The notes under the pieces were generated by a model. That model was given only the letters and a program-made list of their open reading frames with translations, was not told where the DNA came from and did no database searches. A DNA stretch of 64,000 nt from Alteromonas sp. KC3 (GTDB taxonomy: Bacteria; Pseudomonadota; Gammaproteobacteria; Enterobacterales; Alteromonadaceae). A program made the position numbers and the translations under genes. The stretch is from contig NZ_AP024235.1 in the NCBI RefSeq assembly GCF_016756315.1, forward strand, positions 806,001-870,000. Reading direction: 5' to 3'. Shown here piece after piece: positions 29,322-48,289 of this stretch; the first letter of the stretch is position 1, and each line of letters starts with the position of its first letter.

Positions 29322-29671
29322 GGAGTTGGCCAGGCAACCGTCGCTTTCGTAAGAAAGGGGAGGAAAGTCCGGGCTCCAAAGGGCAGGGTGCCAGATAACG
29401 TCTGGGCGGCGTGAGCCGACGACAAGTGCAGCAGAGAGAAGACCGCCTAAGCATGTTCGCATGCCGGTAAGGCTGAAAGGGTGCGGTAAGAGCGCACCGC
29501 ACCTCTGGTAACAGAGTGTGGCGAGGTAAACTCCACCCGGAGCAAGACCAAATAGGATCCCTTAACGTGTGGCCCGCATGGGGATCGGGTAGGTTGCTTG
29601 AATCAGTGAGTGATTGCTGATCTAGAGGAATGGTTGCCCACGACAGAACCCGGCTTATCGGCCAACTCCAC
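29322..29671 (+). ncRNA. rnpB: RNase P RNA, bacterial type A
   Basis: The 350-base RNA has the universally conserved parts in order: P1 stem GGAGTTGGCC (29322-29331) pairing with GGCCAACTCC (29660-29669), GAGGAAAGTCCGGGCTCC, the CAGGGTGCCAG region, AGACCGCC, GGTAAGGCTGAAAGGGTGCGGTAAGAG, GGTAACAGAGTG, GGCGAGGTAAACTCCACC, GAGCAAGACCAAATAG, and ACAGAACCCGGCTTAT. It cleaves tRNA precursors with RnpA. Its 3' end is duplicated at 48.12 kb and appears to be the attachment site of the adjoining island. Confidence 0.97.
29654..29671 (+). repeat. Island left repeat (attL), part of rnpB
   Basis: CTTATCGGCCAACTCCAC forms the 3' strand of the rnpB P1 stem and matches 48120-48137 in 18 of 18 bases. Confidence 0.85.
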
Positions 29672-29839
29672 ATTTTTTTAGAGCTTTTATTAAATCAGAA
29701 GGCTTGAAGTTAGCTTGAGATTGCCACAATCACTAAGTAAGAAGCAGTGCAATCAGCGTTGATTATTCACTTATGTTTTTTACTTTTACATAGGTCACTT
29801 GCATATCAAGCTTAAATTGCCATCGCCCTACTGATTTAA

Positions 29840-32737
29840 TTATCTTAACAACTGATTGTTAAATGGCGCTCCGAATATATCTTCCCAGCTTTCTAACCAA
29901 TTTTCACTAAGAGAAAACGCTTTGTATTTAGGGTGTACATTTTTGCGAACATTTAGCCACTTTTGGTTGATAATTTTTTTACTGCGTAAAGCCCTAGAAA
30001 CGTTGTTAGTGAACTTTGCATTGTCGGGATTAACTAAGTAGTTATTTATACAGTTTGTAATATCAATTCCAAAGCTATACTCGTTTCCTGTTAATAATCT
30101 AATTACAAGCGCACATAATATGAGCGGTATAAATTCTGTGCCATCAAACTTCACTCCATTAATATCAATTCCCTCAGGGAGTATCAATGATATGTCGACT
30201 AAGAATTCTTCATTTTCACTATTTTCGTCGTCTATATAGGGCAAAAGTTCCAATTGCTTGGATGTTGAACTAGGCCTATTTGATTCATCAATCAACAGCT
30301 CTTTAGGAAAAATTCGTTTTATTTTGTCTTCACAGAGATTTATTTCAGAAAGGGAGTTAAAAGCTTTGTTATTTGGGAGTTCTTCCCTATACATCTTTAG
30401 AAGGTATCGAACTATATAAAACGATAGTTTTGAATTTTCAACAATATCTATGGCGTCTTTGTAAAAAATGTTTTTACCTTTTTCCCCCATGTAAGAAAAA
30501 ACTCGGTCATATTCTGCCTTTGTTTTATCAAAGTCTATTGTTGAATGAAAGGGCAAGTCAGCGCAGATCAATGATAAATAAATTTTGGTTCCTGTTATTT
30601 CAGATAGGAAAGTTAGACCAAGAGGGGAAATTCTAAAATGTATTCCTTCATTCACTTCAAATTCATATATATTATCTGCATCACTCGGGCCTTCAAGACA
30701 TTCAAGTAAACGTTGTCTTACAGACTCTTCAATAGCATTTAAGATCCAATTTTGTTTATAACCGTACATTTTTAGGTGAGCTAATATTCGTCGCTTAGGT
30801 ATTCCATGCGTCTTTTCATTACTCTTTATCGAGTAGTTCAAAAACATCAATAAACGCAACTTAAGAAAATATGTCTTGTTTATATTCTGATAAGGAATGA
30901 ATATATTGGGTATTATTCCTCCTTCGGATATTTCCTTACTTATCATCAATGCTGTTATTGCTTCTGCATTTGTCCATACTTCCTTTGAAGATCCCAATTG
31001 CATATGAACTCTTTTAAGTAGATCGTAAAATAGTCTAATGTTATGCCATGATATACTGGAAAGTGTTTGCAATATCTTTGGACCGTCGGAAGAAAGTTGT
31101 AAACTGTTTTTGAGTACTTCTTTGTACTTGAAAATTGCAATTTTGAATTGATCTAAATCGTACTTTCTTCTCCATTCAGAGACTCTAAAATCTTCGTCAA
31201 AATGCTGTTCTATATATTTCAATCGCTTTGATATTAGCGTTTCAAAATCTGGAGCTTTGAGGTGAATAACTCTATCCGAAGGCCTTACGTCAAGAAAGCC
31301 TTTATTCTTATTTTTGAAGTATGTGAATTCTCTCATTGTGATAATTATAGTAGAGCCACTGAGCGATGATATTTTGCAGGCTAATGTATATACTTCCTCT
31401 TGGATAACCTCAGATGCCCTATCAACGTTGTCAATTATAATGATGACGTTATTCTTTCTCTTCGTTATTTCCTTTGCAGCTTTAATAATAAAGTCTTCTT
31501 TATTTTTTATAAGCTCGTCAAGAAGGTTGGCTTCACTTTCTATATACTTTTCTGGATGAGATTCAAATAGTTTTTTCTTAGGTCCGTTTTTCAGTATTCT
31601 TATTTCGTCCTTGAAAACATTTACGAGGTTTTCATACTCGTTTATCCAAGGGTAGCATTCTTTTATATTCCTGCTTACTTTATCGAAAATTAGCTCTTTC
31701 GGATTTTTTATTGTTTTATCAACATCGTAAATTAAGTCGACAAAAATTGGCGTTATAGACGATTTTTGATTGACTTTGGCTTCGATTAAACTTTTCTTTA
31801 CTAGAGTGCTTTTCCCACAGCCGACAGAACCTGCAACAATAATTACTTTGCCGGAATTTGAATGGTCCAAGATTGCAGATTGGCTCTCACCTGGTGCTAG
31901 ATCATCTGCATTAGAAGGTAGAAAATTTGGCTTTTGATCTTTGAGTATCCTTTTTAAATCACCTTTATACTGTGATAATTTTGAATCAGCTACAAAACAA
32001 TGGTCCAACATCTTTCGCTGATTGCTTTCGGTTATTTGGGAGAAAAATGATTCATAGAATTCATCAATGTACTTGTCTCGGTCGGGTTTATTCCATTTAA
32101 GAACTCCATAATCAGACTTTATTATTTTACACACTTCAGACTGTGAGTAATTAAGTTCATTCAAACACTCGTCCAGTTCTCCATTACCCACCGATTCTTT
32201 AGATAGCAAATTCCAAAAATGGTCAAAATAGAAGTCATCAGAAAATATGTTACCGAAATAGATACCCTTCATATTGTCAAAAGCAACGCCTGGGGTAGCT
32301 ATTAACGGTAATACTAGCCATTCAGCTCCATTAGATATGACACCATAGGATACTCCATTATCAATACAATACTTTGTCGCTTGATCTATGGTATTTGTAA
32401 GATTTCTCTTGAACGCTTGTTTAAAATAAGAAATTGTATATTCGTGTTGGTTTAGTCTTTTTTGAGGAGTGCCAAATGTGACGCCAGTTTTTTTTGCTTC
32501 TAGTACAAATCGCGGAACGCTATCCAGTTTAACCAAATAATCAGCATAGCCGCTTGCTGCACTATGTGATTCTGGATTAAATTCTTCTAAATCCCAACCG
32601 AGTAATTGAAGTACTTGGTCAATGATAAGAAGTCTTGTTTTAGCTTCATTTGCATTCTGTAGCTTATTATTTATGTATTTTTCTCTAATTGCGTTCAGTT
32701 TCGATAACGCTTTTTCTTTTGTTCCCAAATTATTCAA
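29840..32737 (-). CDS. HsdR_N-like PD-(D/E)XK nuclease fused to P-loop NTPase, candidate defence protein
   Basis: 965 residues. Residues ~25-190 resemble the N-terminal nuclease domain of type I restriction HsdR: E31 (NEAKTR), D66 (GYADYLV), the E80-x-K82 pair (VLEAKK), then Q97 and VSYGVISNGAEWLVLP. A P-loop NTPase follows, with Walker A GSVGCGKST (about 303-311), Walker B NVIIIIDNVDRAS (about 430-442) and a sensor TIIITMREF. The remaining ~450 residues are helical with a possible winged helix and no motif I know. There are no helicase motifs, HsdS or HsdM, so it is not a type I R subunit. Nuclease plus STAND-like NTPase plus sensor tail in an island suggests a standalone antiphage gene. Strongly AT-rich. 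Confidence 0.72.
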   Translation of the reverse strand: MNNLGTKEKALSKLNAIREKYINNKLQNANEAKTRLLIIDQVLQLLGWDLEEFNPESHSAASGYADYLVKLDSVPRFVLEAKKTGVTFGTPQKRLNQHEYTISYFKQAFKRNLTNTIDQATKYCIDNGVSYGVISNGAEWLVLPLIATPGVAFDNMKGIYFGNIFSDDFYFDHFWNLLSKESVGNGELDECLNELNYSQSEVCKIIKSDYGVLKWNKPDRDKYIDEFYESFFSQITESNQRKMLDHCFVADSKLSQYKGDLKRILKDQKPNFLPSNADDLAPGESQSAILDHSNSGKVIIVAGSVGCGKSTLVKKSLIEAKVNQKSSITPIFVDLIYDVDKTIKNPKELIFDKVSRNIKECYPWINEYENLVNVFKDEIRILKNGPKKKLFESHPEKYIESEANLLDELIKNKEDFIIKAAKEITKRKNNVIIIIDNVDRASEVIQEEVYTLACKISSLSGSTIIITMREFTYFKNKNKGFLDVRPSDRVIHLKAPDFETLISKRLKYIEQHFDEDFRVSEWRRKYDLDQFKIAIFKYKEVLKNSLQLSSDGPKILQTLSSISWHNIRLFYDLLKRVHMQLGSSKEVWTNAEAITALMISKEISEGGIIPNIFIPYQNINKTYFLKLRLLMFLNYSIKSNEKTHGIPKRRILAHLKMYGYKQNWILNAIEESVRQRLLECLEGPSDADNIYEFEVNEGIHFRISPLGLTFLSEITGTKIYLSLICADLPFHSTIDFDKTKAEYDRVFSYMGEKGKNIFYKDAIDIVENSKLSFYIVRYLLKMYREELPNNKAFNSLSEINLCEDKIKRIFPKELLIDESNRPSSTSKQLELLPYIDDENSENEEFLVDISLILPEGIDINGVKFDGTEFIPLILCALVIRLLTGNEYSFGIDITNCINNYLVNPDNAKFTNNVSRALRSKKIINQKWLNVRKNVHPKYKAFSLSENWLESWEDIFGAPFNNQLLR

Positions 32738-33156
32738 TTTCTATCATCCATTTTTGGTTAACTAGGAAACTTAATCGATCCCGATAGCTACTTCTGTATT
32801 CATACCAAGGCGCTAGATTATAGTCAATTAGGGTGAGCTTGAGTATTTTGTATCAAAGTCGTATCTCACCTTTGAATCGTACGCTATTTCACTTGTCCTG
32901 TAGTGCTTGATTAAAGAGTACTTGTTCTACTAACTTCATACTGCTTGAATACGGAGTGCTAAATGTCATATCCAGCATCCAAAGGTAATTTTTAGATATT
33001 TTTATGTACTTTTTGATATGGTTTCTCCTGAAAAGTTACTCTGTAATTTTCTCTCAATTAAACCTCATTGAAATCTTCGCAAATCATTTAATCATTTGGT
33101 AAAAGTATATGGTTACCACCTTCTCAAGACAAAGAAACTAATGATAAGGACTAAGA
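32738..33156. other. Intergenic region in the island
   Basis: AT-rich divergent region between the nuclease-NTPase gene and the VOC gene; presumably holds both promoters. No gene, repeat or RNA is recognisable. Confidence 0.5.
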
Positions 33157-33537
33157 ATGAATCACAAAGGTGAGCTTAACTGGGTTGAATTACAAACGAA
33201 GCAGCCTGAAGAGGCAATGACATTTTACAACCGACTATATGGTTGGAGTTTTGCCTCAGAAACGAATGAACAAGGTGATGTTTATTGGTTAATCTCTAAC
33301 ACAGATAAGTTTCCGTTTGGTGGAATTCTTACCTTAAAAGAGGACTCTCCGATAAATTCAAGGTGGGTGACCTATTTTCAGGTAGACGATGTTGATACTG
33401 CCATTCGAGTTGTCGAAGATAACAACGGTACTATAATAAATGGCCCAAGAGATGTAAAAGGCGTAGGGCGGGTCGCATGGCTCCAAGATAAAGAAAGGGC
33501 AGAGTTTGGTATAATTGCACCATGTACCGATAATTAG
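33157..33537 (+). CDS. VOC-superfamily (glyoxalase/bleomycin-resistance-like) protein
   Basis: 126 residues forming one vicinal-oxygen-chelate domain: GELNWVELQTKQPEEAMTFYNRLYGWSF, FGGILTL, WVTYFQVDDVDTAI and FGIIAPC. Substrate cannot be inferred; members act as dioxygenases, isomerases or antibiotic-binding proteins. It stands alone with about 240 bases on its right. Confidence 0.85.
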   Translation: MNHKGELNWVELQTKQPEEAMTFYNRLYGWSFASETNEQGDVYWLISNTDKFPFGGILTLKEDSPINSRWVTYFQVDDVDTAIRVVEDNNGTIINGPRDVKGVGRVAWLQDKERAEFGIIAPCTDN

Positions 33538-33749
33538 CGAGTTTATAAACGCTTCCTTAGTTGCCCAAAAAAGTAACAAGTAAAAAGACTTTATATTTAC
33601 GCATTAGTTAGATAGCATATACGCGTAACAAAAGTAAGGATTTTGATGATTGTAACAACACCTATGCAATAGCAATCGGCAGCAACTGCCTAGCTTTGCA
33701 TGATTCAAGCCGTTGACTCCTCAAAAAGTCAGCGTTATTTGTTTTGTTA

Positions 33750-33765
33750 AGGCAGATATCTGCCT
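33750..33765. promoter_or_regulatory. Perfect 16-bp palindrome next to the rsgA-like ribosome site
   Basis: AGGCAGATATCTGCCT is perfectly self-complementary. It abuts the GAAGG ribosome site (33766-33770) of the gene starting at 33778, so a repressor bound there, or an RNA hairpin, could block translation or transcription. Confidence 0.55.
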
Positions 33766-33777
33766 GAAGGTATTGTT

Positions 33778-34806
33778 ATGAATAATTTTTCTGAGTTGAA
33801 AAAGCTTGGTTGGCAGCCGTTTTTCCTCCAGCAACTCACTTTAGAAGAGTATGAACTCTTCGAACCCGCGCGAATCGTCGCACACGACCGCAGTCGATAT
33901 GTAGTTTTTAACGGCACTTCTTACCAGTCGCTAGACATTCTAAAATCTTTTCCCAAGATGACGGTTGGCGATTGGATTCTCATTGACGGACAATCACAGT
34001 TTGTTCGTTTGTTAGACAGGAAATCTTTATTTTCACGTCGTTCAGCTGGAAGTAAGCTAGGCCTGCAACTTATTGCGTCTAATATTGAAACACTGTTTAT
34101 TGTCTCTTCTTTAAACCATGACTTTAATCTGAGTCGAATTGAAAGGTACTTAGTGCTCGCCAGAGAAGCAGAAGTTGAACCCATTATCGTGCTAACTAAA
34201 GCAGACTTAGCTTCAAACAAGGATGATGCGCTCGACAAGCTTGAAAAGCTCGATTCTAGACTGAGAGTCTTCTGTGTAAACGCTCTAGATAAAGAGAGCT
34301 GTGAGGGCTTGAGAGAAGAGTGTCCTGTAGGAACTACGGTTGCGCTTTTGGGCTCATCGGGTGTTGGTAAATCTACCATAACCAATACGTTATTACAGTC
34401 AGAAGTGCAAGCGACTAAAACCATTCGCGAAGACGATAGTAAAGGCAGACACACTACCTCGTCTCGTTCCATACATTTTATACCGAATGGCGGTGTTCTT
34501 ATTGATACACCAGGAATGCGAGAATTAAAATTAACAGATTGCTCTGAAGGTATTGACTCTACTTTTGATGATATTGGTCAACTAGCGAAGAAATGTAAGT
34601 TTGCAGATTGCAGCCATACTAGTGAGCTAGGATGCGCAGTCTTAAAGGCAATAGAAAACGGCTTGCTAGAACCTAGGCGATTAGCTAACTATCAAAAACT
34701 AAAGCGTGAAGAGGAACGAAATTCAATGGAATTACATGAATTAAGAGCAAAGGAGAAAAGCTTCAAAAAAATGGTTAACTCAGTTACTCGTAAGTCAAAA
34801 ATGTAG
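33778..34806 (+). CDS. RsgA-like circularly permuted GTPase (second copy type)
   Basis: 342 residues: OB-fold N-terminus, then a permuted GTPase with G4 (LTKADL) before G1 (GSSGVGKST) and G3 (DTPGMREL), and the C-terminal zinc motif CKFADCSHTSELGC. RsgA helps mature the 30S subunit. The extended N-terminus (ELKKLGWQPFFLQQLTLEEYE) marks the longer RsgA subgroup found as an additional copy in many bacteria. Its location in an island suggests it is not the housekeeping gene. Confidence 0.88.
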   Translation: MNNFSELKKLGWQPFFLQQLTLEEYELFEPARIVAHDRSRYVVFNGTSYQSLDILKSFPKMTVGDWILIDGQSQFVRLLDRKSLFSRRSAGSKLGLQLIASNIETLFIVSSLNHDFNLSRIERYLVLAREAEVEPIIVLTKADLASNKDDALDKLEKLDSRLRVFCVNALDKESCEGLREECPVGTTVALLGSSGVGKSTITNTLLQSEVQATKTIREDDSKGRHTTSSRSIHFIPNGGVLIDTPGMRELKLTDCSEGIDSTFDDIGQLAKKCKFADCSHTSELGCAVLKAIENGLLEPRRLANYQKLKREEERNSMELHELRAKEKSFKKMVNSVTRKSKM

Positions 34807-35126: not shown

Positions 35127-35142
35127 TTTGACAATGGTCAAA
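35127..35142. promoter_or_regulatory. Inverted repeat, candidate TetR operator 1
   Basis: TTTGAC-AATG-GTCAAA, perfect 6-bp arms, about 165 bases before the adaptor-like gene that precedes tetR. Confidence 0.5.
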
Positions 35143-35157
35143 TATAGAACGAAAATA

Positions 35158-35170: not shown

Positions 35171-35307
35171 CATTTTGTTTTGTAGTACGAATGCCATGAC
35201 GGCAGCCTGTATCTACATTGTTGTTGTAATACTTGAGCACCTTACTGCATTGGACTAATGGAGTGATTAAAGCGTTGGGTGCAAGAGCATGTTTCTGTGT
35301 AGTTGGT

Positions 35308-36324
35308 ATGAAGCACTTTATTCTTTTAGTTTTGTTTTTATCCTGCGTTCAGGGTTGTAGCAACGAAAAAGTTGCGCTCAGGTCTAACGTATTATCGATG
35401 GTAAAAGCAGCGGTGTTATCCGAAGAAAGTGGAATCCAACATGTTTTTATTGGGGTAGTTGAAACTACAAGAAAAGCCGTCCTACTTGTCAATAAAGCAC
35501 AACCATCTGTATATGCCTCTACGGGTTTAATGAAACAAAATCTATCTTCGGGTGAACAGTATGATGAAGGTCTCATAAGTAGAAACATTCAGTTCGGCAA
35601 GCCATCTCACAGGGGCTCTGCCGACGAGCAAGCTTCAAAAGAAATAGGAAAACATGTGCTTAGGTGCGAAGAGTTTGAGTTCAAGTTGAACAGTGTTCTG
35701 ACTGATACTAGTTTGATGGTTAATGAGTCTCAAGGCAGTGCCATAACATCTGCTCATATGTTGGAGCTTGTAGATATCGTGATCCACCTCCCCTTTGAAT
35801 TCATTTCGAAACTTGAAGAAAGAGGTGGATTAAAAAAACCAAAAGTAAAACTTGATGACATAGCTGGTGCAACATTTGATGGCGTTTTGCATTCGTGGAA
35901 TAAAAAAACCAGCTCAAATACTCAACTTTATAGAGCGATAATTACAATTCAAAAGCCCAAAGAGCAGGATGTGTATTCAGGCATGCCAGCACGAATTGTT
36001 TTTGATGTTCCACAAAATAGCGGGCACAAAGAAAAGTATTTAACGGTGCCAGTAGAATCTGTATTTGGTATCGGCCAGTATGGGAAGACAAAGGGCTATG
36101 TCTGGGTCATAGGCAGTAACGACTTTGTAGAAAAGCGATGGGTAACTGTAAGTAGAACTGACGAACAGTATGCATTTGTTTTGAACGGACTGGAACTTGG
36201 CGAAAGAATTGTAATCGCTGGGGGAGAAGAACTAGAAGATGGGGATTTGGTTCTTATCTGGCGCGAAGGCCGTAAATTGGAATTACAAACTCATAGAGCA
36301 AGCATAACAAGCGACAAAGCCTAA
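35308..36324 (+). CDS. RND efflux adaptor-like lipoprotein with atrophied N-terminal half
   Basis: 338 residues starting at ATG 35308 with a lipoprotein signal (lipobox VQGC). The C-terminal half resembles membrane-fusion proteins: a beta-barrel (LVDIVIHLPFEFISKLEE, then AIITIQKPKEQDVYSGMPARIVFDV) and a membrane-proximal domain (VPVESVFG, GYVWVIG, LNGLELGERIVIAGGEELEDGDLVL). The lipoyl/coiled-coil hairpin that contacts TolC is not recognisable; a short polar stretch takes its place. No RND pump gene lies nearby. It is probably a remnant or a repurposed adaptor, paired with the tetR gene 45 bases downstream. Confidence 0.68.
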   Translation: MKHFILLVLFLSCVQGCSNEKVALRSNVLSMVKAAVLSEESGIQHVFIGVVETTRKAVLLVNKAQPSVYASTGLMKQNLSSGEQYDEGLISRNIQFGKPSHRGSADEQASKEIGKHVLRCEEFEFKLNSVLTDTSLMVNESQGSAITSAHMLELVDIVIHLPFEFISKLEERGGLKKPKVKLDDIAGATFDGVLHSWNKKTSSNTQLYRAIITIQKPKEQDVYSGMPARIVFDVPQNSGHKEKYLTVPVESVFGIGQYGKTKGYVWVIGSNDFVEKRWVTVSRTDEQYAFVLNGLELGERIVIAGGEELEDGDLVLIWREGRKLELQTHRASITSDKA

Positions 36325-36369
36325 AAATATTAACAGCTTGGCAAAATGCACAAGGGTACTAAGTAAATA

Positions 36370-37017
36370 ATGAAAGTCTCATTAGAGAAACCAGCATTCA
36401 GGAAAATGCCAACTCAGCAACGTGCTATCGAGAAAGTTGAGCGTATTCTTGATTGCGCTGCAAACATTCTTGTAGACAAGAAAGTAAGACTAAGTACGAG
36501 GCAAATAGCTAGCGAAGCTGGGCTTTCCCCTGGGACCATTTATCAATTCTTTAATAACGTAGATTCAATAATGTCCGCTTTAGTTGAAAGGCTAATGGCG
36601 GGACTTTATGAGGAAATGGTTGAAGCATTAAAGGATTATCCGAAGAGCGACTTTGCAACTGTTTCTTCGAATATGATAAACCGCATTGTCCAATATTATT
36701 ATGACAATAAAGGCATCGTCAGCGTAGTGTTAGCTGCGCAAAATCACGCTGAATTTATACGAGTAAATGAAGAATTTAATACACAGATAAGCGCATTAAT
36801 GACCGAAAGTATTGTGTTGCACAATGCCTTGATTGAAATAGAAACGGTAGAGCGATTGGTTGATGTGTTAATGATGGTCAGCGACTCGATGTCAATGAAA
36901 ATATGGTCGCTAGATGATGATGTTAAAAGGGAACGGTATGCGGAAGACCTAAGGTTTTTAATTGTTCAATACGTAAACAAAACGTTGAATGGCGAAGGCT
37001 CAGTTTATGAAGCATGA
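36370..37017 (+). CDS. TetR-family transcriptional regulator
   Basis: 215 residues. The N-terminal HTH (residues ~18-65) reads ILDCAANILVDKKVRLSTRQIASEAGLSPGTIYQFFNNVDSIMSALVERL, the TetR signature. The C-terminal ligand domain is not assignable. It follows the adaptor-like gene in the same direction, so autoregulation of the pair through the upstream inverted repeats is likely. Confidence 0.92.
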   Translation: MKVSLEKPAFRKMPTQQRAIEKVERILDCAANILVDKKVRLSTRQIASEAGLSPGTIYQFFNNVDSIMSALVERLMAGLYEEMVEALKDYPKSDFATVSSNMINRIVQYYYDNKGIVSVVLAAQNHAEFIRVNEEFNTQISALMTESIVLHNALIEIETVERLVDVLMMVSDSMSMKIWSLDDDVKRERYAEDLRFLIVQYVNKTLNGEGSVYEA

Positions 37018-37180: not shown

Positions 37181-37480
37181 ATGATGGAGCGGCATATGCA
37201 AACAAGCAACTACGATCCAGAATTTCTCGGAGCACGAGGTTTTGGACTTATTGGTTATGGTTATGCCGATGAACTAGAAGATTTCTTAAAGACAGCAAAA
37301 AGAGAGCGAGCGGACAACACCTTTTCTCTCAGGCAGCTTTCAAAACACTCAAATGACTTTTTCATTATTCAGTACGTCATGCTCAAAACTGAGAACAGAG
37401 GGGCGATAGGGTTCGAGATCGTCTCTGAGACAATGCGTCGTAGGTCCGATATATCGGCGCAGTGTAACTCACTGCGCTGA
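37181..37480 (+). pseudogene. CHASE-domain fragment of a lost sensor protein
   Basis: 99 residues: YDPEFLGARGFGLIGYGYADELEDFL, FSLRQLSKHSNDFFIIQYVML and NRGAIGFEIVSETMRRRS line up in order with the extracytoplasmic CHASE sensor domain of diguanylate cyclases and kinases. CHASE domains are always flanked by membrane helices and an output domain; none is present here, and the frame ends in a short unrelated tail (AQCNSLR). In-frame residues continue upstream of the ATG without a start or helix. I read it as a decayed remnant. Confidence 0.6.
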
Positions 37481-38032: not shown

Positions 38033-39004
38033 TTAGTTGTTGTTTATTCTCTTACCAAAAGAAATCGCATACGTTGGAGATCGCATTCTTAGTATGGGGT
38101 CTGAACTAGTCAAAAAACCCTGACTCAAAACATTTGGATCGAAATTAATACTTTCACAGTTATTCCCACCACTACTTTTGACTTTAAAAGTTCCGACATT
38201 AATGGTTGGGCGAACAGGCCACTGTTTTGTAGGATCATCTTCACTATCGTTTTCCTCCCCCAGACTTATTATCCAATCAAAATCAATCGAAGATTTCTTT
38301 AGCCGTTCTATTAATCTATGTTCAAGGTAGTTCGAACCATTTAGACCTAACTCAGATTCATCGATTGCCTTTAGACCATCCCTAGGTTTTAATCGCCAAC
38401 GGATTTTAATCATGCTTCCGTCTTTGTGTTCAACGAAAAAGGTATGGATCCCAAAGTATTCGCTAGTGTTGTACCCCCAGGGTGGGAGATTATTCTTTAA
38501 CCACTCAGCTTGAGCCTGAGTATCTGGATGCTTTTTCCTAAACGCTTCAATTTTTGTTGTGTCGTCGTCACCAGGAATAGAAGCATTCAAAAGACCTAAA
38601 AAAGTCTCAGGGTCTTTTGCTGCAAACACCGGCACACTAAGTGCTGCTATGTTATGTTTAACGTTACTTGAAAGAGTGATCTGAGCCGCCAACCCTCGAG
38701 GGGCTCTCGAATTGTCCGAGGTCAAAGGGTTTCCTCCAGGTAGTGAAAATCTGAACACCACCGGCTTTTCTTTAAGTGTAAATAAGGCCGCATCAAAATA
38801 GTCTATTGCTGCGGGGTTTGGGAGAAAGCTTCCCTCGGCACATATACCTTTTGCATGATTCTTTCTAACGCCTTTGTGTTTACCTGCTATTTTTTCGAAT
38901 ATATTTATAAAATCTACCGGTCGAACTGCTTCTGCATGAGCGGTCTGAATACTGCTAAAAAGCCCAAAAAATCCTGTTAGCAAAAAAGTAACAGTAGTAC
39001 GCAT
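38033..39004 (-). CDS. Periplasmic catalase-related peroxidase (SrpA-like)
   Basis: 323 residues with signal peptide (to about residue 24, AHAEA). The distal haem histidine H50 sits in RKNHAKGICAEGSF; SLPGGNP, RGLAAQI, YFGIHTFFVEH and the proximal tyrosine in RMRSPTYAISFGKR complete the catalase core. Small catalase-related proteins of this type bind haem and have peroxidase rather than strong catalase activity. The exported location suggests peroxide defence in the periplasm. It follows the large lipoprotein gene on the same strand, about 100 bases after it. Confidence 0.87.
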   Translation of the reverse strand: MRTTVTFLLTGFFGLFSSIQTAHAEAVRPVDFINIFEKIAGKHKGVRKNHAKGICAEGSFLPNPAAIDYFDAALFTLKEKPVVFRFSLPGGNPLTSDNSRAPRGLAAQITLSSNVKHNIAALSVPVFAAKDPETFLGLLNASIPGDDDTTKIEAFRKKHPDTQAQAEWLKNNLPPWGYNTSEYFGIHTFFVEHKDGSMIKIRWRLKPRDGLKAIDESELGLNGSNYLEHRLIERLKKSSIDFDWIISLGEENDSEDDPTKQWPVRPTINVGTFKVKSSGGNNCESINFDPNVLSQGFLTSSDPILRMRSPTYAISFGKRINNN

Positions 39005-39102: not shown

Positions 39103-41346
39103 TTAATTGTCTAAACGATAGGACAACCGTATGTCACTGATTTCAACGTCTGAACTATCAGGAGTAAGTAAAATTCTATTTATTATTTCAATACCTTGTG
39201 TGGATATGAACTTAGATTCTGGCCCAAATGGTGGTAGCTGAAAGTTATCTACGAACAAAAGCTGTTTATACCTTGGACTAGACGCAAGAGCTTGTATACA
39301 AGAAGTTGGAGCATCAATAGAAATATCTGAAAGCAAGTCAATTTGTTGGTTCGGTCTTAATTTTGCTTCATCTAAGATTGTCCCATCAGATGAAATTACT
39401 TTACCCTCACAAATATAGTGTGCTAGACGTGGGGGAAAAGATTCGAGAGCTTCGTTTATTCCAAATGACTCTGCAGCTCTAAAAGTAGTAAGATCATTTA
39501 AGGGAGCGAAATTATTGCCAACGTGAGACGGTGTCGCCAACATATCCATAGAGAAATTCAAGTCTCCTATTTTTATGTTAGACATTTTATCGCTCATTAT
39601 TTTGCTCGAAAACTTGGCTTCGACCGTTTCTAGATCGACGATACTTAAAGTCCCTAAAGCGCCGCTTAATTCTACGCCTGTAATAATCTCTACCAACTCC
39701 TCATAGGCATACTTGAAGTCCCACAAAGCGTCAACTAACACTGAATCTTTAACCTCAATAGGAACTGCTGTGAAGTTATCAGCTTTCAAAGAAAATGCAG
39801 AGTCAGATGCGTTTTCCTCTCTTATCAATTCACCATTTGTTACCAAATGCTCGGCAGTTCCTCCCGATAAGGCTTCATCCAAAATGATGTATGAAGCTCT
39901 TTTCAATCTATCGAATTGAAATACTATAGGTTCACTTGGAAGCAATGCCCCTGATTTTTTGACCCTTGAGGACAAAGCCTCATTTGGAAGAAACGGGGCA
40001 TTTGCTAATGACGAAATGTGTGGTAGCAAAGTTGCAGCTGTGAGAACCTTCGTACTAGTAAGGAAGTTCTGTTGATTTTCGCGAATCTGTAGCTCTCTAG
40101 TTAAGTCAGAAGTAGCAGAACCCTCTGATATCTCTAACATAGATTCAACCAATTTATAAGTAGAAAACAAACTACCTTCTCTAAAACCACGCGATGAACT
40201 ACTCGGACCTGCTATTGTGTTAAACGGCGCACTTAAAGGAGACAACCCAGACTGCTGTAATGCTGTTTTAGCTAATATTAAGTTGTGCAACATTATTCGT
40301 CGATCTTGGAGTGTAAACCCTTTCTCATTGAGTTCATTAACCACTAATGATGTAATCTCAGAGTTAGTAGTTTCGCCATTATAATAAGATTGCGTCTGGA
40401 TCATACCTATGAGTTCTTGAACATTAATAGCTCGTCCATTCAGTTCAAACTCATCGGTATTGCCTAACAAATCTTCAACCAGAATCAAGATACCATCTTC
40501 AATTCTTATTTGTTGCTTTTTACCATCAGCACCGTGAATACTGAAGGGTTCCATCGAAGTCAGAGGCGTACGATGAATAGAACCATCGGTCAGCTCAACT
40601 TCTAACTGAGCAGAAAGTTCTTGAATTGAGTCAACGTCTATCCCACCTTGGGAGACTGATTTAAAAACCTCAGGATGAACTTGTAAGGTAAAAGTCGGAT
40701 ATTTAGTAAATGTTGTATTTAGGCTATTTTTGCCTCTATGAAACAAAGAAATAGTACTACCGTCGAACTCTTGGTCTTCTGTTGAGCTGGAAAAATTATG
40801 CACTGTAGGTCCTAGTAGAGGCCCAGGCGCTGCAATTGCGGGGTTGTGAATAGGAGAACCAGTTAGAACAAAATCCACGTTTTTTGCTTGGAACAACATA
40901 TATACGAAGTCTTCTCTAGAAATATGTTCAAGATCAGATGTGTACTTCTTCGTTAAAAAGCCTTGTATCGAAATGGTTTCACTATCTGTTTCTTCAATAA
41001 ACTGCTCTCGTATGATTCTCTCGGCCTCCGCATATGTCACGAGGCCGTCTCCCAAGCCACTTGTGTTTAGGAGCTCCTCCGCGAAAGTAAAATCTGCCTT
41101 CTCTTTAGGATAAAAAAAGCTTTCATTAGGAAGTAAGCCTAATTCTTTAAGCTCATTTACGGCTTTTCTTGCATAATTAGAAATCTGGGCGCTATCTTGA
41201 AATGGTGCATTAGGGTCTACGATTGACATACCAGGATCATCAACATAGTCATCATAATTATTGTTGTCATTGCAAGCAGCTAATAAACCTACCGTTAAAC
41301 CCAATACTGCAGTAACACGAAAATACATTTTTTTTCTTTTGACCAT
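39103..41346 (-). CDS. Large lipoprotein of unknown function
   Basis: 747 residues with a lipoprotein signal (GLLAAC, Cys at about 25), then an acidic Asn/Asp-rich linker. I recognise no domain. The C-terminal 150 residues contain two cysteines (HYICEGKV, TSCIQAL) that could form a disulfide. Composition is Ser/Thr/Leu/Glu-rich and mostly beta/alpha mixed. It is preceded by tandem 11-bp repeats identical in style to those before the adjacent two-component genes, so it is the likely regulated output of that system. Confidence 0.7.
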   Translation of the reverse strand: MVKRKKMYFRVTAVLGLTVGLLAACNDNNNYDDYVDDPGMSIVDPNAPFQDSAQISNYARKAVNELKELGLLPNESFFYPKEKADFTFAEELLNTSGLGDGLVTYAEAERIIREQFIEETDSETISIQGFLTKKYTSDLEHISREDFVYMLFQAKNVDFVLTGSPIHNPAIAAPGPLLGPTVHNFSSSTEDQEFDGSTISLFHRGKNSLNTTFTKYPTFTLQVHPEVFKSVSQGGIDVDSIQELSAQLEVELTDGSIHRTPLTSMEPFSIHGADGKKQQIRIEDGILILVEDLLGNTDEFELNGRAINVQELIGMIQTQSYYNGETTNSEITSLVVNELNEKGFTLQDRRIMLHNLILAKTALQQSGLSPLSAPFNTIAGPSSSSRGFREGSLFSTYKLVESMLEISEGSATSDLTRELQIRENQQNFLTSTKVLTAATLLPHISSLANAPFLPNEALSSRVKKSGALLPSEPIVFQFDRLKRASYIILDEALSGGTAEHLVTNGELIREENASDSAFSLKADNFTAVPIEVKDSVLVDALWDFKYAYEELVEIITGVELSGALGTLSIVDLETVEAKFSSKIMSDKMSNIKIGDLNFSMDMLATPSHVGNNFAPLNDLTTFRAAESFGINEALESFPPRLAHYICEGKVISSDGTILDEAKLRPNQQIDLLSDISIDAPTSCIQALASSPRYKQLLFVDNFQLPPFGPESKFISTQGIEIINRILLTPDSSDVEISDIRLSYRLDN

Positions 41347-41715: not shown

Positions 41716-43161
41716 TTAAGGGAAAGAAAGTGGTAAGATAATTTGAAAACAATTTTTATCATCTATTCGTTGAAATTTTAATCGACCACCATGTTTTTCA
41801 GATATTATACGAACAATTGTGAGGCCAAGGCCAGATGTAGTTTTTAAAGGTCCGGATCTAAGTTGTGAACAAAGCTCTGGTTGAATAGGTTCACCTTGAC
41901 TACATATACTCAGAAGCAATTCGTCGTTACAGTGTTTTACACTAAATTTTACACAACCCGTTCCATATTTTGATGCATTGTCAAATAGATTTGTGAGAGC
42001 ACTCTCAATGTGGATCGGGTCAAATACATAAATGTAATTCTCTACGACATTGATTTCCCAATCTCTTTTGGGGTTACGAGTAAGGTAGTCGTTAAATATG
42101 TCGAAACAAAACTCGCTCAACGATAGCTCCTCTTTTTGTAGTACAAAGCTAGCGAGGTCAACTCTTGCAAAATCAAAAAGTTGATCTAAATAATGTTTTA
42201 GCTTAAGAGCGTTTTTGTATGCCGTGTTCATAAAAGGATCAGTGGTTTTTTTCTCAGCCTGCTCCATGTACCCGAGCACATTAGTAAGAGGCGTACGTAA
42301 ATCATGAGAGAGACGAGAGACCAGAAAACGTCTTTGGTCCTCTGACTGCTCAAGTAAATTCACTTGTGACTGAATCTTTATGGTTAAGGCATTTAGATCG
42401 CTCTGCAAATTATCCAGTTCGTTTACAGAGCTTGTTATTGGTGGTATTACTTCGATCAAATCACCTCGGAATTCCTGAATCTTTTCAGATAAAAAAATAA
42501 TTCGCTTTATCAGTCTAAAAAACAGCGTCATACCAAGTACTAGTCCAACAAACAAACTAAAGCCTAATGCATAAACTCCTAGTTTAAGCATTAGGCTTTC
42601 GTGCAGTTGCCTGTCTGCATCAGCCTCTATACTATCTTGGATTATCACATAGAGAAAATAATCGTTTTTTCCCTTTTCATTTGGAATTGGTGATACTGAA
42701 AATGACTTTTTCTCGTTTATGTCTCGTGGATCATCACCTAATATCCAAGTCGACTCTCCACTTTGGTTTAACATCGAATATATTGGTTCAAGAGAAACAT
42801 GAGTGACTTTTATTTTCTTTTCATCTGCTGCATATCTCAATATTTCACCGTCTTTACCCAACAAATAAATCTGTAGAATTGGGTTCAATAGCATATAACG
42901 TTCGAAGGTTTTGATTATCGCGGGCTCATTGAGCTTTCCATTTTTAGTTAAGTTGTGATCTTTGATTATGGTCTGAGCCATATTAATGTGAATACGAGTT
43001 TGAACTTGGTGCAAATAGTAACGAGCAATACTGTAGCTCATTGATATGTAAATCAAACTAGATAAAAAGAAGATACTTATCAAAAGTAGACTATACTGTC
43101 TAAACAATCTGGTTCTGAAAACATTACGAGTAGGTTTGAGTACTTGTTGATTAAATTTCAT
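41716..43161 (-). CDS. Membrane sensor histidine kinase
   Basis: 481 residues: transmembrane helices near residues 20-45 and 190-215 enclosing a ~145-residue periplasmic sensor domain, a linker, a HisKA domain with phospho-accepting H286 (RLSHDLRTPL), and an HATPase domain with LTNLFDNASKYG (N box) and TTSGLGLTIVR (G box). The gene overlaps its response regulator by four bases. The signal is unknown. Confidence 0.93.
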   Translation of the reverse strand: MKFNQQVLKPTRNVFRTRLFRQYSLLLISIFFLSSLIYISMSYSIARYYLHQVQTRIHINMAQTIIKDHNLTKNGKLNEPAIIKTFERYMLLNPILQIYLLGKDGEILRYAADEKKIKVTHVSLEPIYSMLNQSGESTWILGDDPRDINEKKSFSVSPIPNEKGKNDYFLYVIIQDSIEADADRQLHESLMLKLGVYALGFSLFVGLVLGMTLFFRLIKRIIFLSEKIQEFRGDLIEVIPPITSSVNELDNLQSDLNALTIKIQSQVNLLEQSEDQRRFLVSRLSHDLRTPLTNVLGYMEQAEKKTTDPFMNTAYKNALKLKHYLDQLFDFARVDLASFVLQKEELSLSEFCFDIFNDYLTRNPKRDWEINVVENYIYVFDPIHIESALTNLFDNASKYGTGCVKFSVKHCNDELLLSICSQGEPIQPELCSQLRSGPLKTTSGLGLTIVRIISEKHGGRLKFQRIDDKNCFQIILPLSFP

Positions 43162-43850
43162 AACGCATCGGGATTTAACTTATAGCCAACCCCCCATACT
43201 GTTTGAATAATTTGTGGGTTTTTTGCGTCATCTTCGAGTTTTTGACGCAGTCGGTTAAGATGACTATTTACTGTATGTTCATATCCCTCATGTTGAACTC
43301 CCCATACTCGATTAAGAAGGTCAGATCGGCTAAAAACGTGTGTAGGGTTCGAAGCAAAAGTCATAAGAATAGAAAACTCTTTGGCTGTTAGTGATAGTTC
43401 ATTCCCTCTAACAAATGCCTGATGAGAGTGTGGAATCATTCTTAACGAACCGATTCTTATCTCACTATTCTCCGGTATGTTTCCAACTCGCATAGCTCGC
43501 CTAAGTAATGCCTTTATTCTGGCTTTCAGCTCTGCCAAGCTGAACGGCTTACTAAGATAATCATCAGCTCCAACTTCCAACCCTACCACTCTATCAAGCT
43601 CTCCTCTGCGAGCAGAGAGCATCAAAATAGGAGTTGTCTCATTAGATTTCCGAAACTCCTTACAGAATTCAATCCCATCTCCGTCAGGCAGAGATAAATC
43701 TAAGACAATAATGTTGAACTCTTCCTCTGAAACTTTCTTGAAGGCTTCAGACAAAGTATTAACAATAGTTTCTTTACCCTGTAGTTCTTCAACCTGAATA
43801 GACACTAAGTTTGCAATATCGATATCGTCCTCAATTATTAATACTTTCAT
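43158..43850 (-). CDS. OmpR/PhoB-family response regulator
   Basis: 230 residues: receiver domain with acidic pocket D8-D9, phosphorylated D51 (IVLDLSLPDGDG) and conserved Lys in LSKPFSLAEL, then a winged-helix DNA-binding domain (ELSLTAKEFSILMTF...YKLNP). It is the first gene of the two-component operon. Matching 11-bp tandem repeats lie upstream of it and of the lipoprotein gene, suggesting autoregulation. Confidence 0.94.
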   Translation of the reverse strand: MKVLIIEDDIDIANLVSIQVEELQGKETIVNTLSEAFKKVSEEEFNIIVLDLSLPDGDGIEFCKEFRKSNETTPILMLSARRGELDRVVGLEVGADDYLSKPFSLAELKARIKALLRRAMRVGNIPENSEIRIGSLRMIPHSHQAFVRGNELSLTAKEFSILMTFASNPTHVFSRSDLLNRVWGVQHEGYEHTVNSHLNRLRQKLEDDAKNPQIIQTVWGVGYKLNPDAL

Positions 43851-44730
43851 ATTGTTTTTCTAGAGAGCTAATTAAAAATGATTCTGAAAAAACAAAGCAT
43901 TATAGACTCGTCATCCCAGCTCTAATTTCCGAACTGTGAAGACGAAGGGTTCTCTTGAGCTCGGCCTTGTAACAGTATCAGTAAAAAAGCAGCAATACAT
44001 CACAAATACTTCACGGAATATTTCTATTTGTAGTTGATAAAGGAACAAGAGATACAACGAAGACTTTATGATTTAAGTGGACTTGGAGATTATACAATGA
44101 TTTAAGTCGCACAGAGGACATATGCTGCATACTAAATCTCCATCCATTGTAACAACGAGCCATGTAATCCTTATCACACCTGTTGTTCAAAGAATGGGCT
44201 CTTGGAAAACGATTTCTTATTAAGTTAACAAACAAAACTTTGTGCCGTTACTATAGAAGTTGATCAGCGACTAGCTAGTTGATTTATACTGTGAATAATC
44301 ATTCACACTACTTAAATTTTGCCCACGATCATCATAAAGCTAGCAAAAGCTGAAACTTAGATGTCTGCTCAAGACAAGTTGCGGGCGAACAGGTTATTGA
44401 CTAGCTACTTCTGCTTCGTGCCAGAAACTGCCGTTCAAGTATATGTAATTCGACGGCAGAAGAATACGCAAAGCTGAAGCTAATGAGCTTAGATTTGAAT
44501 TTTTATCATGTGCGCACGCTAACTTATCTTTAGTGGTTGATTTTGGGCGTTGTATAAATCAAATAGATAATAAGCAACTATTCTCTAGAATGGATTTCAC
44601 TAAGTTCTGATTATTGCAAGCATCTCAATTAGTAGTTAACTTTAGCGATATTAATGGAACCCAAATCTTTTGAACTCAGATTGGTTTTCGCTGAAGTTTT
44701 TCACAAAATTAATCTGCAGGAAGTGGTAGT
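43851..44730. other. Long intergenic region between divergent sensor genes
   Basis: 880 bases between the response-regulator operon (-) and the diguanylate cyclase (+). A 74-codon frame on the minus strand has no protein character. Apart from the tandem box at 44000 and a small dyad GTGAAT-AATC-ATTCAC at 44291, nothing is recognised. Confidence 0.5.
44000..44021. promoter_or_regulatory. Tandem 11-bp repeats upstream of the response regulator
   Basis: TCACAAATACT followed by TCACGGAATAT, in the same orientation and phase as the pair at 41551. It lies 150 bases before the regulator's start. Confidence 0.6.
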
Positions 44731-47637
44731 TTGAAGAATGTAATTTTTACGCTGTATTTTTTTGTGACTGCTGTAGGAGCAGTATCTCAAGCATCTGATA
44801 GCCACAATTTATTTTATGAGTCCTGGAATACAAAAGCAGGACTACCGCACAACACTATCACGGATATTACTCAGTCAGAAGATGGTTATTTATGGCTTTC
44901 TACTTGGGAGGGAGTCGCACGCTACAATGGTGAGTCATTCTTAAATTCAAATGAGATAGTTGGAGCAAACTTCACTGACAGTGGTGCCTGGGTAATCACC
45001 AGAGATTCATCCGGAAATGTTTTTATCGGAGGTGCGGAAGGACAGGTTATAAAAAGAAGCTCAAATGGTGAATGGACTGAATTAGGAAACGTTAACTCCC
45101 AAGTGAATGCTCTATATTACCATCCTGATTTAAATCTTTTAATTTCTGCCGAGAATGGAAGTATCTATAGAGTAGATTTCGATGGTAATTTTTCAGTTTT
45201 CGTTGATTCAGAAGAGTTAGACGGCAAAAGTGTTTTAAGTATTGTTCATCACGGACCAACTACTTTCTTTGGAACAGAATCCGGATTGAATATTTTGCAT
45301 GAGGGAATATTATCCAGAGACGAACGGATGCTGGGAAGTCGCATTAACGCCCTTGCACTATTCGAGAGTAAGCTGCTCGCGGCGTCTGATGAGGGGCTTA
45401 GTTTAATCTCAATCTCTGATCCCAGCGAAACCGTTGTAAAACTATCGGAGAAGCCAGCCACTTCAATCTTAATTGATAGAGGAGATAGAATCTGGTTAGG
45501 CACATATAAAGATGGCTTGTATCTGTACGATAATTTGAAGCTCACGCGGCACTTCTCTCTAAATTATGGTCTGCTAGATAATCGCGTCCTTTCTATTTTT
45601 GAAGACCGAGAAAGAAGTATTTGGGTTGGTACAAATGGTGGGCTAAGTCGACTTAGAAAGTCTTTATTTACCAGCTTTGGAAAGCGGGACGGAATTGATA
45701 ATGAATTTGCAAGAGCTGTAATACAGAGGGACGATACAATTTGGGTTGGTACTTCAGGTGGGTTGTACAAATCAGTTAGTGGCAACCAATTTGAAAAGGT
45801 CGTTTCCGATATATCAATACTAAGTCTCGCGATAGGTAACAATTCAGAAGTTTTAGTTGGTACATATGCAAGTGGACTTTATCAATTAAGAGGAAACGAT
45901 TTAACGAGATTTACGCACCTTGAAGATTTAATCCCCACCACGGAAATTAGAACAATTGCTGTAAATGATTATGGTGACTTAGCAATAGGAACTTCAAACG
46001 GCCTGCTAATTGTGTCAAGAGACCAAACATACCTATTTGATGAAAATAGCGGGTTAGAAAGTGATTTTATTGCGGTTGCTAAATTTATTGAACGCACCCT
46101 TTGGATAGGTACAAGCCAAGGTTTTTATTCGATTGAAAATGGCGAGTTAAGCGAACAAGTCTTTGATCCAGCTACTGGTGCTGTTCAGATTTTCGATATT
46201 CAAAAGCCTTTAAATTCGAAATATTTTTGGATTGCGTCTAGTCGAGGCTTGACAAGATATGACCCTCAGATAAACGAGTACAAGACCTTTAATGATTTTG
46301 GGGATCTTCCAACTCAAAAAGTCTTATCCATAAATACTGACAATAATGGCTTTTTTTGGCTCACAACAAACCACGGCGTGGTCCAAATAAGAATTGAACA
46401 AGTCAACGCTAGTATTGAAACTGGTATTAAACCAAACATTGCTTGGTTTACCGAAAGAAATGGGATGAACAGCCGTCAAGCCAATGGACGTTCCACACCA
46501 TCATCTTGGTTTGACACTGAATCTGATTATCTCTGGGTTGCAACAGCGAAAGGAATATCCAGAGCGGATTTAAAAATCACAGAACCTGTGATTCAATCGC
46601 CTCCAGCGCCAAGGTTTGAAGCACTATACATATCAGATGTACTCATGGGTGTAGAAGATTCGGTACAAATCGCTGCCGGTGATTCTGACTTAAAAATAAA
46701 GTTTGCAAGTATCGATTTATTGCTGGGTGAGCAAATAAAATATCGCGCTAGACTTGTAGGCTATGCAAATGAATGGGCGAAACGAAGCAAACTCAACGTT
46801 ATCGAGTACTTCAATCTGCCTCCTGGCAATTTTCGGTTTGAAGTGCAAGCCAGTTACGATTATTCTACTTGGTCAGATGCTTCAATTCTAGAAATTACTA
46901 AGCAACCGTTCTGGTGGCAGACATTGACTGCGAGGATCTCTTTTTATGTTTTCATCGCTTTACTGATTTTGGGATTATTTTGGTTGAAAACTTTAAGTGC
47001 CAAACGTGTTCAGCGGTCACTTGAAACAAGAGTTGCCGAGAGAACTAGTGAGTTACAAGCGAGAAGTAGACAGCTAGAAGAAGCCAATATTGAGAAAACG
47101 AAACTTGTAGAAGAACTCAGCAAAAAGTCTCTAATGCTTGAAGAACTATCTGCAAGGGACCCACTAACTAATTTTTTTAATAGACGAGCATTTGAAGAAA
47201 TCTGCAGTAACGAAGAATCGAGAGCGCAGAGAGCTGCAAGCCCTTTTTGTCTATGTTTTATTGATATAGACCACTTCAAGAAGATAAATGACAACTGGTC
47301 GCATAATGTTGGCGATAAGGCACTAGTTGCAATATCTAAAATAATTTTATCTCAATTAAGGACAGTGGACAGTGCTGCGCGGTGGGGTGGAGAAGAATTC
47401 ATATTGCTACTGCCAAATGTAACAATCGAATCAGCGATAATTTGCTGCGAGAGAATTCGAAAAGCGGTCGAGCAATACGACTGCACCGAGATTGCAGACA
47501 ATCTGAAAATAACCATCAGTGGGGGTGTAAGCCAATATGATCCCGATTCAACGATTCAAGAGCTTATACACAGAGCAGACCTAGCTTTATATGAAGCGAA
47601 ATCATCAGGAAGAAATATAGTATTCCCGCAAAGATAA
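44731..47637 (+). CDS. Two-component-type beta-propeller sensor fused to GGDEF diguanylate cyclase
   Basis: 968 residues. A signal peptide (to about SQA) is followed by periplasmic Reg_prop propeller repeats (recurring GLPHNTITDITQSEDGYLWLST, DRIWLGTYKDGLY, RSIWVGTNGGLS units), a Y_Y_Y domain (about 640-725), one membrane helix (about 735-755), a coiled coil, and a GGDEF domain with active GGEEF at 886-890 and an I-site RTVD at 877-880, five residues upstream. It makes cyclic-di-GMP, with product inhibition, in response to a periplasmic ligand. The TTG start is supported by CAGGAAG. Related hybrid sensors often bind sugars. Confidence 0.93.
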   Translation: MKNVIFTLYFFVTAVGAVSQASDSHNLFYESWNTKAGLPHNTITDITQSEDGYLWLSTWEGVARYNGESFLNSNEIVGANFTDSGAWVITRDSSGNVFIGGAEGQVIKRSSNGEWTELGNVNSQVNALYYHPDLNLLISAENGSIYRVDFDGNFSVFVDSEELDGKSVLSIVHHGPTTFFGTESGLNILHEGILSRDERMLGSRINALALFESKLLAASDEGLSLISISDPSETVVKLSEKPATSILIDRGDRIWLGTYKDGLYLYDNLKLTRHFSLNYGLLDNRVLSIFEDRERSIWVGTNGGLSRLRKSLFTSFGKRDGIDNEFARAVIQRDDTIWVGTSGGLYKSVSGNQFEKVVSDISILSLAIGNNSEVLVGTYASGLYQLRGNDLTRFTHLEDLIPTTEIRTIAVNDYGDLAIGTSNGLLIVSRDQTYLFDENSGLESDFIAVAKFIERTLWIGTSQGFYSIENGELSEQVFDPATGAVQIFDIQKPLNSKYFWIASSRGLTRYDPQINEYKTFNDFGDLPTQKVLSINTDNNGFFWLTTNHGVVQIRIEQVNASIETGIKPNIAWFTERNGMNSRQANGRSTPSSWFDTESDYLWVATAKGISRADLKITEPVIQSPPAPRFEALYISDVLMGVEDSVQIAAGDSDLKIKFASIDLLLGEQIKYRARLVGYANEWAKRSKLNVIEYFNLPPGNFRFEVQASYDYSTWSDASILEITKQPFWWQTLTARISFYVFIALLILGLFWLKTLSAKRVQRSLETRVAERTSELQARSRQLEEANIEKTKLVEELSKKSLMLEELSARDPLTNFFNRRAFEEICSNEESRAQRAASPFCLCFIDIDHFKKINDNWSHNVGDKALVAISKIILSQLRTVDSAARWGGEEFILLLPNVTIESAIICCERIRKAVEQYDCTEIADNLKITISGGVSQYDPDSTIQELIHRADLALYEAKSSGRNIVFPQR

Positions 47638-48289
47638 TATAAAGGTAAAGGGATGGAAAAGGGATTTTCTGAATGTCTGCAAGTTGTCTGAAGCGGTTTC
47701 GCGAGTCACAAACATCTAATGTCCACTTAATGCTCAAAACTGACCTCTACTGCATTAGATATTAAATTGGGCCTTCGCTAACTGACGGTGCCTTTTATAA
47801 AAACCAGATAGACAAGTACCCCAAATCTCAAGTGTTTGCTGTTTAAGCAGTAGCTTGTTTTCTCATGCAGCTTTGTGATGTTACTCCGTCCATACTTGCT
47901 GCGTCGGCTGTGACCTAGAAGATAGAATAAGCAGCTTCGTGACTTCGCCCAACGAATAAAAAATCATTTTAAATCAATGCTGTAAGCCGGTCTTATGCAT
48001 AATGCCTTTAATTCAACCATTCTAATCTATGTCACACTGTGACACTATAGTGATACCACACGAAATCAACGTTTTTAAATGACTGATTTTGAAGTATTTT
48101 TGTGAGTATGGTTTGTTAACTTATCGGCCAACTCCACTCTTTTCTATAACCAAAACTCGGGCTTTTTTTTAATCCTATACGACTCAAAACCGTCTAATCT
48201 GCAAATAAAAGCGCCTAGCTACTTCAATACATTATCATGTATATCTGTACTATTTATGTAATCAACTGAAATGACGTAGAGATGCAGAT
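47638..48289. other. Right end of the island and promoter of the EamA gene
   Basis: No gene is seen. It includes the palindrome GTCACACTGTGAC (48031-48043), the 18-base copy of the rnpB end, and a T-run after CTCGGGC (48158-48170) that could be left over from the original rnpB terminator. Confidence 0.5.
48120..48137 (+). repeat. Island right repeat (attR)
   Basis: Exact 18-base copy of the rnpB 3' end. Bases on both sides differ from rnpB, so it is a short site duplication and not a second rnpB fragment. Confidence 0.85.

Follow-up and report, generated by a model that had tools for sequence, protein, structure and literature searches.

Islands of the Islander class occupy tRNA and tmRNA genes, and the tmRNA elements I23, I44 and I55 are of this kind in the available passages of PMC12595487. 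The alternative flagellin FlkA of Escherichia coli ECC-1470 is encoded on the genomic island GI10 (islet flk), according to the available part of PMC5422975. In this study, we analyzed an island at another structured RNA gene, rnpB for the RNase P RNA, in a 64,000-nucleotide stretch of the genome of Alteromonas sp. KC3 (contig NZ_AP024235.1, positions 806,001 to 870,000 of the forward strand; here called the window, in which all positions are counted). A preliminary description made from the letters of this stretch had noted an 18-bp duplication of the rnpB 3' end bounding AT-rich, accessory DNA that holds no recombinase gene.

As far as the tRNA- and tmRNA-site islands are described in those passages, the window island resembles them in having a repeat formed by the 3' end of a structured RNA, an RNA gene that stays whole and accessory cargo; rnpB elements of relatives resemble them in having an integrase gene beside the RNA gene, defence genes and, in some, a weakly Gp2-like protein. 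In contrast to them, the window island targets rnpB, has no integrase and no Gp2-like match, and its cargo is mostly not defence. As it lacks an integrase, we did not file it as a full member of the tRNA type, though its ends work alike. The flagellin islet of E. coli ECC-1470, probably flk, lies directly after rnpB as well but has an integrase, a YagK/YfjJ protein, a recombinase and flagellin genes, and its cargo is unrelated. Cis-mobilizable elements (CIMEs) are flanked by attachment sites and have no recombinase. The window island likewise has a left (attL) and a right (attR) site and no recombinase, but no neighboring helper element was seen beside it. A role of rnpB as attachment site is not stated in the literature found, namely the available passages of PMC2516327, PMC8776855, PMC2864759, PMC11476347, PMC12595487, PMC5422975, PMC7018530 and PMC7133007; the recombinase group of rnpB did not appear in that literature either. 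Feng 2008 and Liu 2012 (E. coli flk, unilateral phase variation), known to us from reference lists only, may well name the site.

A duplicated rnpB 3' end bounds the island

The rnpB gene (29322..29673, forward strand) is intact and matches the Rfam model of class A RNase P RNA (RF00010) with 336.1 bits over model positions 1 to 367 of 367, so it has been restored to full length despite the insert. The left repeat (attL, 29654..29671, forward strand) overlaps its 3' end and consists of the 18-mer CTTATCGGCCAACTCCAC, which recurs exactly at 48120..48137 (attR, forward strand) with an offset of 18,466 bp between the copies. These are the only two exact copies in the whole 4.56-Mb genome, and no further site with up to three mismatches was found in the window. 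With a chance expectation of 0.02, a repeat by chance was rejected. The repeat is exactly 18 bp long: the left copy stands between AACCCGG and ATTTTTTTAG, the right copy between GTTTGTTAA and TCTTTTCTAT. Within the left copy, GGCCAACTCC is the complement of GGAGTTGGCC, with which rnpB starts (29322-29331), and we take this pairing to be the terminal helix P1. The structured RNA gene that the direct repeat overlaps at its 3' end is rnpB and not a tRNA or tmRNA gene.

The preliminary description gave the extent of the island as 29654..48137; the repeats indeed lie there, whereas the insert proper runs from 29672 to 48119 (18,448 bp). In 1-kb windows, its GC content (30001-48000) is 33 to 41%, compared to mostly 41 to 48% outside, where one window reaches 36%. 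We searched its DNA against the genus Alteromonas in the wide sense (59 genomes, labelled G, with the source genome as G000), scoring at most five candidate stretches per genome. Of the other 58 genomes, 26 matched in short patches; the longest (260 bp, 84% identity) covers the end of a STAND gene in G009, and all others are below 200 bp. This confirms that an 18-bp duplication of the rnpB end bounds an AT-rich accessory island at rnpB, and the unique exact repeat and full-length rnpB support the view of rnpB as its attachment site.

On the right, the flank (48138..48289, forward strand) begins with TCTTTTC and is followed by an EamA transporter gene (48290..49219, forward strand). Four relatives have rnpB close to this same right-hand gene, at about 0.2 kb (G039), 0.36 kb (G029), 0.42 kb (G012) and 0.69 kb (G041; distances to the match start), so the rnpB site can be empty. 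Joining the rnpB end of the window in silico to the DNA from 48138 onward yields the gene order of these four, and the joined sequence shares its first bases, TCTTTTC, with three of them (G029, G012 and G041, not G039). The sequence after the right repeat looks like the displaced native flank. A direct junction of rnpB with this DNA in relatives, which the preliminary description had proposed as a check, was found as gene order in four and as TCTTTTC in three, but not in base-level alignment. In seven other genomes, rnpB and EamA are about 2.9 kb apart, a gap taken to hold a TonB-receptor gene because such a gene separates far repeat and EamA in G022 and a similar one was seen by eye in G023.

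The island genes are not shared by all relatives at this place: apart from the short patches among 58 genomes and the four relatives with rnpB close to EamA, a search of 395 family genomes for a 747-amino-acid island protein found it in one, the source genome itself. No relative carrying the island but not the repeat was found either, since no relative with the island was found at all.

Other elements at rnpB in the genus

The rnpB locus was scanned in 56 of the 59 genomes, and in five of these the downstream sequence was shorter than 8 kb. The scan did not include G056, G053, in which rnpB was not matched, or G035, whose rnpB is divided between contigs. A second rnpB end lies downstream of the gene in seven of the 56 loci, the window included, at 3.2 kb (G022), 4.6 kb (G015), 5.6 kb (G023), 8.2 kb (G040), 8.9 kb (G003), at least 10.4 kb (G054) and 18.5 kb (window), and the window repeat uses the same stretch of rnpB as the six others. 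The forward scan gave six matches, one of them weak (G026), versus one weak match (G003) in the reverse-strand control. G023 was counted by a five-edit match at 5.6 kb with native flank and G015 by a 16-bp exact match missed at five edits; the 12-bp repeats of G049 and G023 and the five-edit match of G026 were not counted as attachment repeats. Two genomes were kept out of the seven: G042 has a recombinase remnant, but a far repeat is missing from about 25 kb of its sequence, and in G031 the contig ends. The element of G054 spans two contigs, with orientation inferred, and was read as one because the gene order of its right part (resolvase, Mrr-type nuclease, helix-turn-helix protein) repeats that of G040.

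As the preliminary description had suggested, other occupants of the site encode a tyrosine recombinase. An intact one of 555 to 564 amino acids follows rnpB after 65 to 88 bp, in the same direction, in five of the seven loci (G015, G023, G040, G003 and G054), G022 has a remnant, and the window alone is without any. In G022 and G042, a recognisable N-terminal piece is kept at the usual place. All five elements with an intact recombinase, 4.6 to over 10 kb in size, also carry a serine resolvase, unlike the window island. More broadly, rnpB-site elements of Alteromonas, Salinimonas, Marisediminitalea and Paraglaciecola share the attachment stretch of the window and differ from it in a tyrosine recombinase starting about 43 to 88 bp after rnpB. 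The open reading frame (ORF) after the recombinase gives a weak match to a Gp2-type replication domain in G003 and G054 and no match in G040, G015 and G023. As cargo, G040 has AbiH and an Mrr-type nuclease, G003 the candidate defence pair PDC-M22A/B, and G054 an Mrr-type nuclease and a PIN-domain protein.

In G023, rnpB ends in CTAACTCCGC; its far repeat is CCAACTCCAC and continues with TCTTTTC, as in the native form of its relatives. In G015, rnpB end and far repeat are two different versions. It follows from these end versions that the element brings its own 3' end for the gene and pushes the old one to the far side, in the manner of tRNA-gene islands. Most bacteria cannot do without RNase P RNA, and such a swap for an element-borne 3' end therefore means that mobile DNA edits a core ribozyme. 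By eye, the elements of G022, G023, G015, G042 and G040 show an imperfect hairpin about 10 to 45 bp after rnpB, which differs in sequence among them and may be a terminator or a recombinase site; none was seen by eye in the window.

The recombinase group of rnpB across family and order

In a family-wide search with five recombinases as queries (395 genomes drawn from a larger group, at most three candidates scored in each), 14 genomes matched at an E value of 1e-30, and rnpB adjoins the match in all 14. This number is a lower bound because G040 and G054 hold the recombinase yet are not among the 14. Among eight named loci, rnpB lies 84 to 103 bp before the recombinase match in seven. At the eighth, in a gammaproteobacterial metagenome-assembled genome (L138, about 8644-9980), the recombinase lies behind an FtsX-domain gene with an rnpB-end-like stretch between them, perhaps a secondary site. 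For the recombinase of G015, the protein database gave 25 relatives, without genomic context.

With a wider profile, 75 of 394 genomes of the order matched at 1e-20. Thirty of these loci were fetched, with the recombinase beside rnpB in 12, a tRNA gene in 7, a tmRNA gene in 2, the signal recognition particle (SRP) RNA gene in 1 and a thiamine pyrophosphate (TPP) riboswitch in 2, and none of these within 1.5 kb in 6. For a tree, 46 loci were reduced to 42 rows, as L179 gave no matching frame and L152, L181 and L182 fell below 350 amino acids (two being rnpB linked); L145 and L147 (copies of L136 and L141) and L164 and L165 (repeating G015 and G095) were left out. All 24 rnpB-linked recombinases fall into one group of 29 rows (support, 98/99), and the rnpB label changes 3 times on the tree versus 13.8 times in shuffles. 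The root was set at the midpoint, and long branches were flagged among the outer rows. Besides these 24, the group holds L138 and four rows that lack an rnpB link, two of which stand behind a TPP riboswitch, so use of rnpB is not universal in it. Of the 13 rows outside, six are linked to tRNA genes, two to tmRNA genes and one to an SRP RNA gene, and no such gene was seen for four.

The two TPP-riboswitch members (L172 2908-3007 of G597 and L175 2915-3011 of G513) have the recombinase directly after the aptamer at similar spacing; a switch of target to another structured RNA is possible. A more distant recombinase directly follows the 4.5S SRP RNA gene in G555 (L186 895-991). When viral contigs were searched with the recombinase alignment, 28 stretches matched a pattern and none was confirmed. 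Phage records gave no match to the recombinase of a relative, and four plasmid records matched, one of them with 22% identity over 80% or more of the query.

In E. coli, relatives of one group member were found in 34 of 5,426 complete genomes, in 19 over most of the length. The integrase follows rnpB in all four loci examined, in one behind a further annotated frame. In ECC-1470 (L260 13602-23121), a flagellin islet starts directly after rnpB with an integrase almost identical to a member of the group. Its far side holds two copies of the rnpB end, about 120 bp apart, which differ from the gene's own end. From its two flagellin-type genes, we infer that this islet is GI10. Liu et al. (2012) are reported to have shown that an integrase drives excision of such an E. 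coli island.

Hence, rnpB, which had been introduced as a far less familiar site than tRNA or ssrA genes, is a recurrent attachment site across the order, including E. coli, beyond what was seen from the window. Whether it is also a standing site beside the tRNA and tmRNA genes, with its own old recombinase group across the order from Alteromonas to E. coli and with defence islands, flagellin islets and integrase-free passengers, perhaps moved in trans, as its load, we regard as evenly balanced. The window island itself is modest, and the recombinase group is the part of use to specialists: with it, a further class of islands, some of them in E. coli, can be searched for directly, and rnpB would be missed by island finders aimed at tRNA and tmRNA genes, such as Islander in its available description.

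The island holds no recombinase

Tyrosine recombinases are encoded at seven places in the source genome and resolvase domains at five (three over the cut-off), all outside the island, and Pfam gave no transposase or recombinase in the 11 main island ORFs scanned. A profile of 15 recombinases compared with 520 six-frame pieces found no piece of an rnpB-type integrase in the island (best E value, 4.5). The same profile detects the decayed recombinases of G022 (1e-8) and G042 (2e-19), and an integrase decayed past recognition was rejected for this reason.

Elsewhere in the source genome, the family-wide search gave no match to an rnpB-type recombinase. Its chromosome has one distant relative (1.3e-23) outside the island, and within 1.5 kb of that relative an RNA gene was not detected. 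The island probably cannot move by itself and, as no rnpB-type recombinase was found in the source genome, is probably fixed for now. With its two perfect repeats, it might be excised if such a recombinase came in, and it is a clean substrate for the question of whether rnpB recombinases act in trans.

Origin of the island

The exact, genome-unique repeat, the intact rnpB, the empty sites by gene order and the same-site elements with a recombinase lead us to a reading that we hold with good confidence: the island entered by site-specific recombination at the rnpB 3' end through a tyrosine recombinase of the rnpB group, which it now lacks. An incoming circle would have carried a copy of the last rnpB bases, and a crossover inside the shared stretch would have left a complete rnpB on the left and displaced the old 3' end to the right, which would keep the ribozyme gene whole. 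The recombinase would have been of the same kind as in the elements of relatives, and its gene may have been lost by deletion or may always have been supplied by another element. Loss after entry is most likely and is favored over transfer in trans and stepwise build-up. That the two repeat copies are identical is in line with a recent event as well as with an incoming end of the same sequence.

Several points weigh against entry by such a recombinase. The right flank aligns poorly past its first bases, and the relatives with an empty site are distant (over the gene to the left of rnpB, G029, G012 and G041 are 73 to 74% identical as DNA, and G039 gives no match), so the empty site is seen in gene order and not at base level. 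Both window repeats read TTATC where the four empty-site relatives have TTAC, and the native copy therefore cannot be told apart; the exact 18-mer is present in 16 of the 59 genus genomes. Exact repeats are 20 to 28 bp long in G022, G040, G003 and G054 (16 bp in G015), and the 18 bp of the window are shorter than those of the four. The island is also longer than any delimited same-site element of the genus, the next being about 10.4 kb plus a gap. No trace of the recombinase of these elements was found in it, tblastn (E value up to 1) detected neither their second-ORF (Gp2-like) protein nor their resolvase, and its ends share only 9-base matches with them beyond the repeat. Finally, its cargo reads mostly as ordinary chromosomal genes.

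A composite origin overlaps with entry by an rnpB recombinase, and both can hold; we rate it as possible yet clearly the less probable. Here, a small rnpB element, perhaps with the STAND gene at the left end only (about 33% GC), would have grown by insertions or in-place gene gain, so that only the outer ends are site specific. GC contents of 33 to 35% at 30-33 kb against mostly 37 to 41% beyond (34% at 41-42 kb), the mixed cargo with a broken CHASE gene, and relatives elsewhere for the STAND gene alone, including an 87% remnant in G009, agree with this. It is countered by the lack of an internal repeat copy at up to three mismatches and of the insertion enzymes sought by Pfam in the 11 main ORFs.

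Rather unlikely is a passenger that never had an integrase, carries only the two attachment copies and, like a CIME, depends on an rnpB-type element for its movement in trans or in cis. The perfect repeats speak for it, and so does the absence of an integrase remnant, whereas the decayed elements of G022 and G042 keep the N-terminal piece; the source genome, however, shows no helper beyond the distant relative elsewhere, and the island was not seen a second time among the 59 genomes of the genus. That the repeat is accidental or stems from recombination with another rnpB end, a site-specific recombinase never being involved, would suit the recombinase-free island but is highly improbable given the chance expectation in the window, the same rnpB stretch repeated at six other genus loci, five with a recombinase, and the excess of forward over reverse-strand matches in the 56-locus scan, which did not show rnpB ends without an integrase to be common near rnpB.

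Gene content of the island

The first gene encodes a STAND/AAA NTPase-like protein of 965 amino acids (29840..32737, reverse strand), a candidate defence gene with weak matches to ATPase_2, NACHT and PADLOC PDC-M54B; this weak PADLOC match is the only link of the island to anti-phage cargo. One metagenomic relative is 91% identical over 90% of its length, and the next are at 45 to 56% in diverse bacteria. In G009, another species, a remnant of 86 codons (L134 4958-5223; 87% at the protein level) stands alone among unrelated genes.

Next come a glyoxalase-superfamily protein (126 amino acids, 33157..33537), an RsgA-like GTPase (342 amino acids, 33778..34806; TIGR00157 above cut-off), an RND efflux periplasmic-adaptor-like protein (363 amino acids, 35233..36324; below the curated cut-off), a TetR-family regulator (215 amino acids, 36370..37017) and a lone CHASE-domain piece (99 amino acids, 37181..37480), probably the relic of a larger, likely sensor gene, all on the forward strand, and a catalase-related haem protein (323 amino acids, 38033..39004) on the reverse strand. 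Also on the reverse strand lie the genes for the 747-amino-acid protein mentioned above, which belongs to no known family (39103..41346), a sensor histidine kinase (481 amino acids, 41716..43161) and an OmpR/PhoB-type response regulator (230 amino acids, 43158..43850). The last gene (44731..47637, forward strand) encodes a Reg_prop/Y_Y_Y/GGDEF protein of 968 amino acids, a putative diguanylate cyclase.

Short noncoding stretches at 44356-44483 and 47684-47742 flank the GGDEF gene and have copies of about 79 to 87% identity in several congeners and elsewhere in the source genome. G021 and G038 contain the two together, within spans of about 2 and 6.5 kb. A 22-nucleotide inverted repeat (42556-42602, 91% complementary) lies inside the histidine kinase gene.

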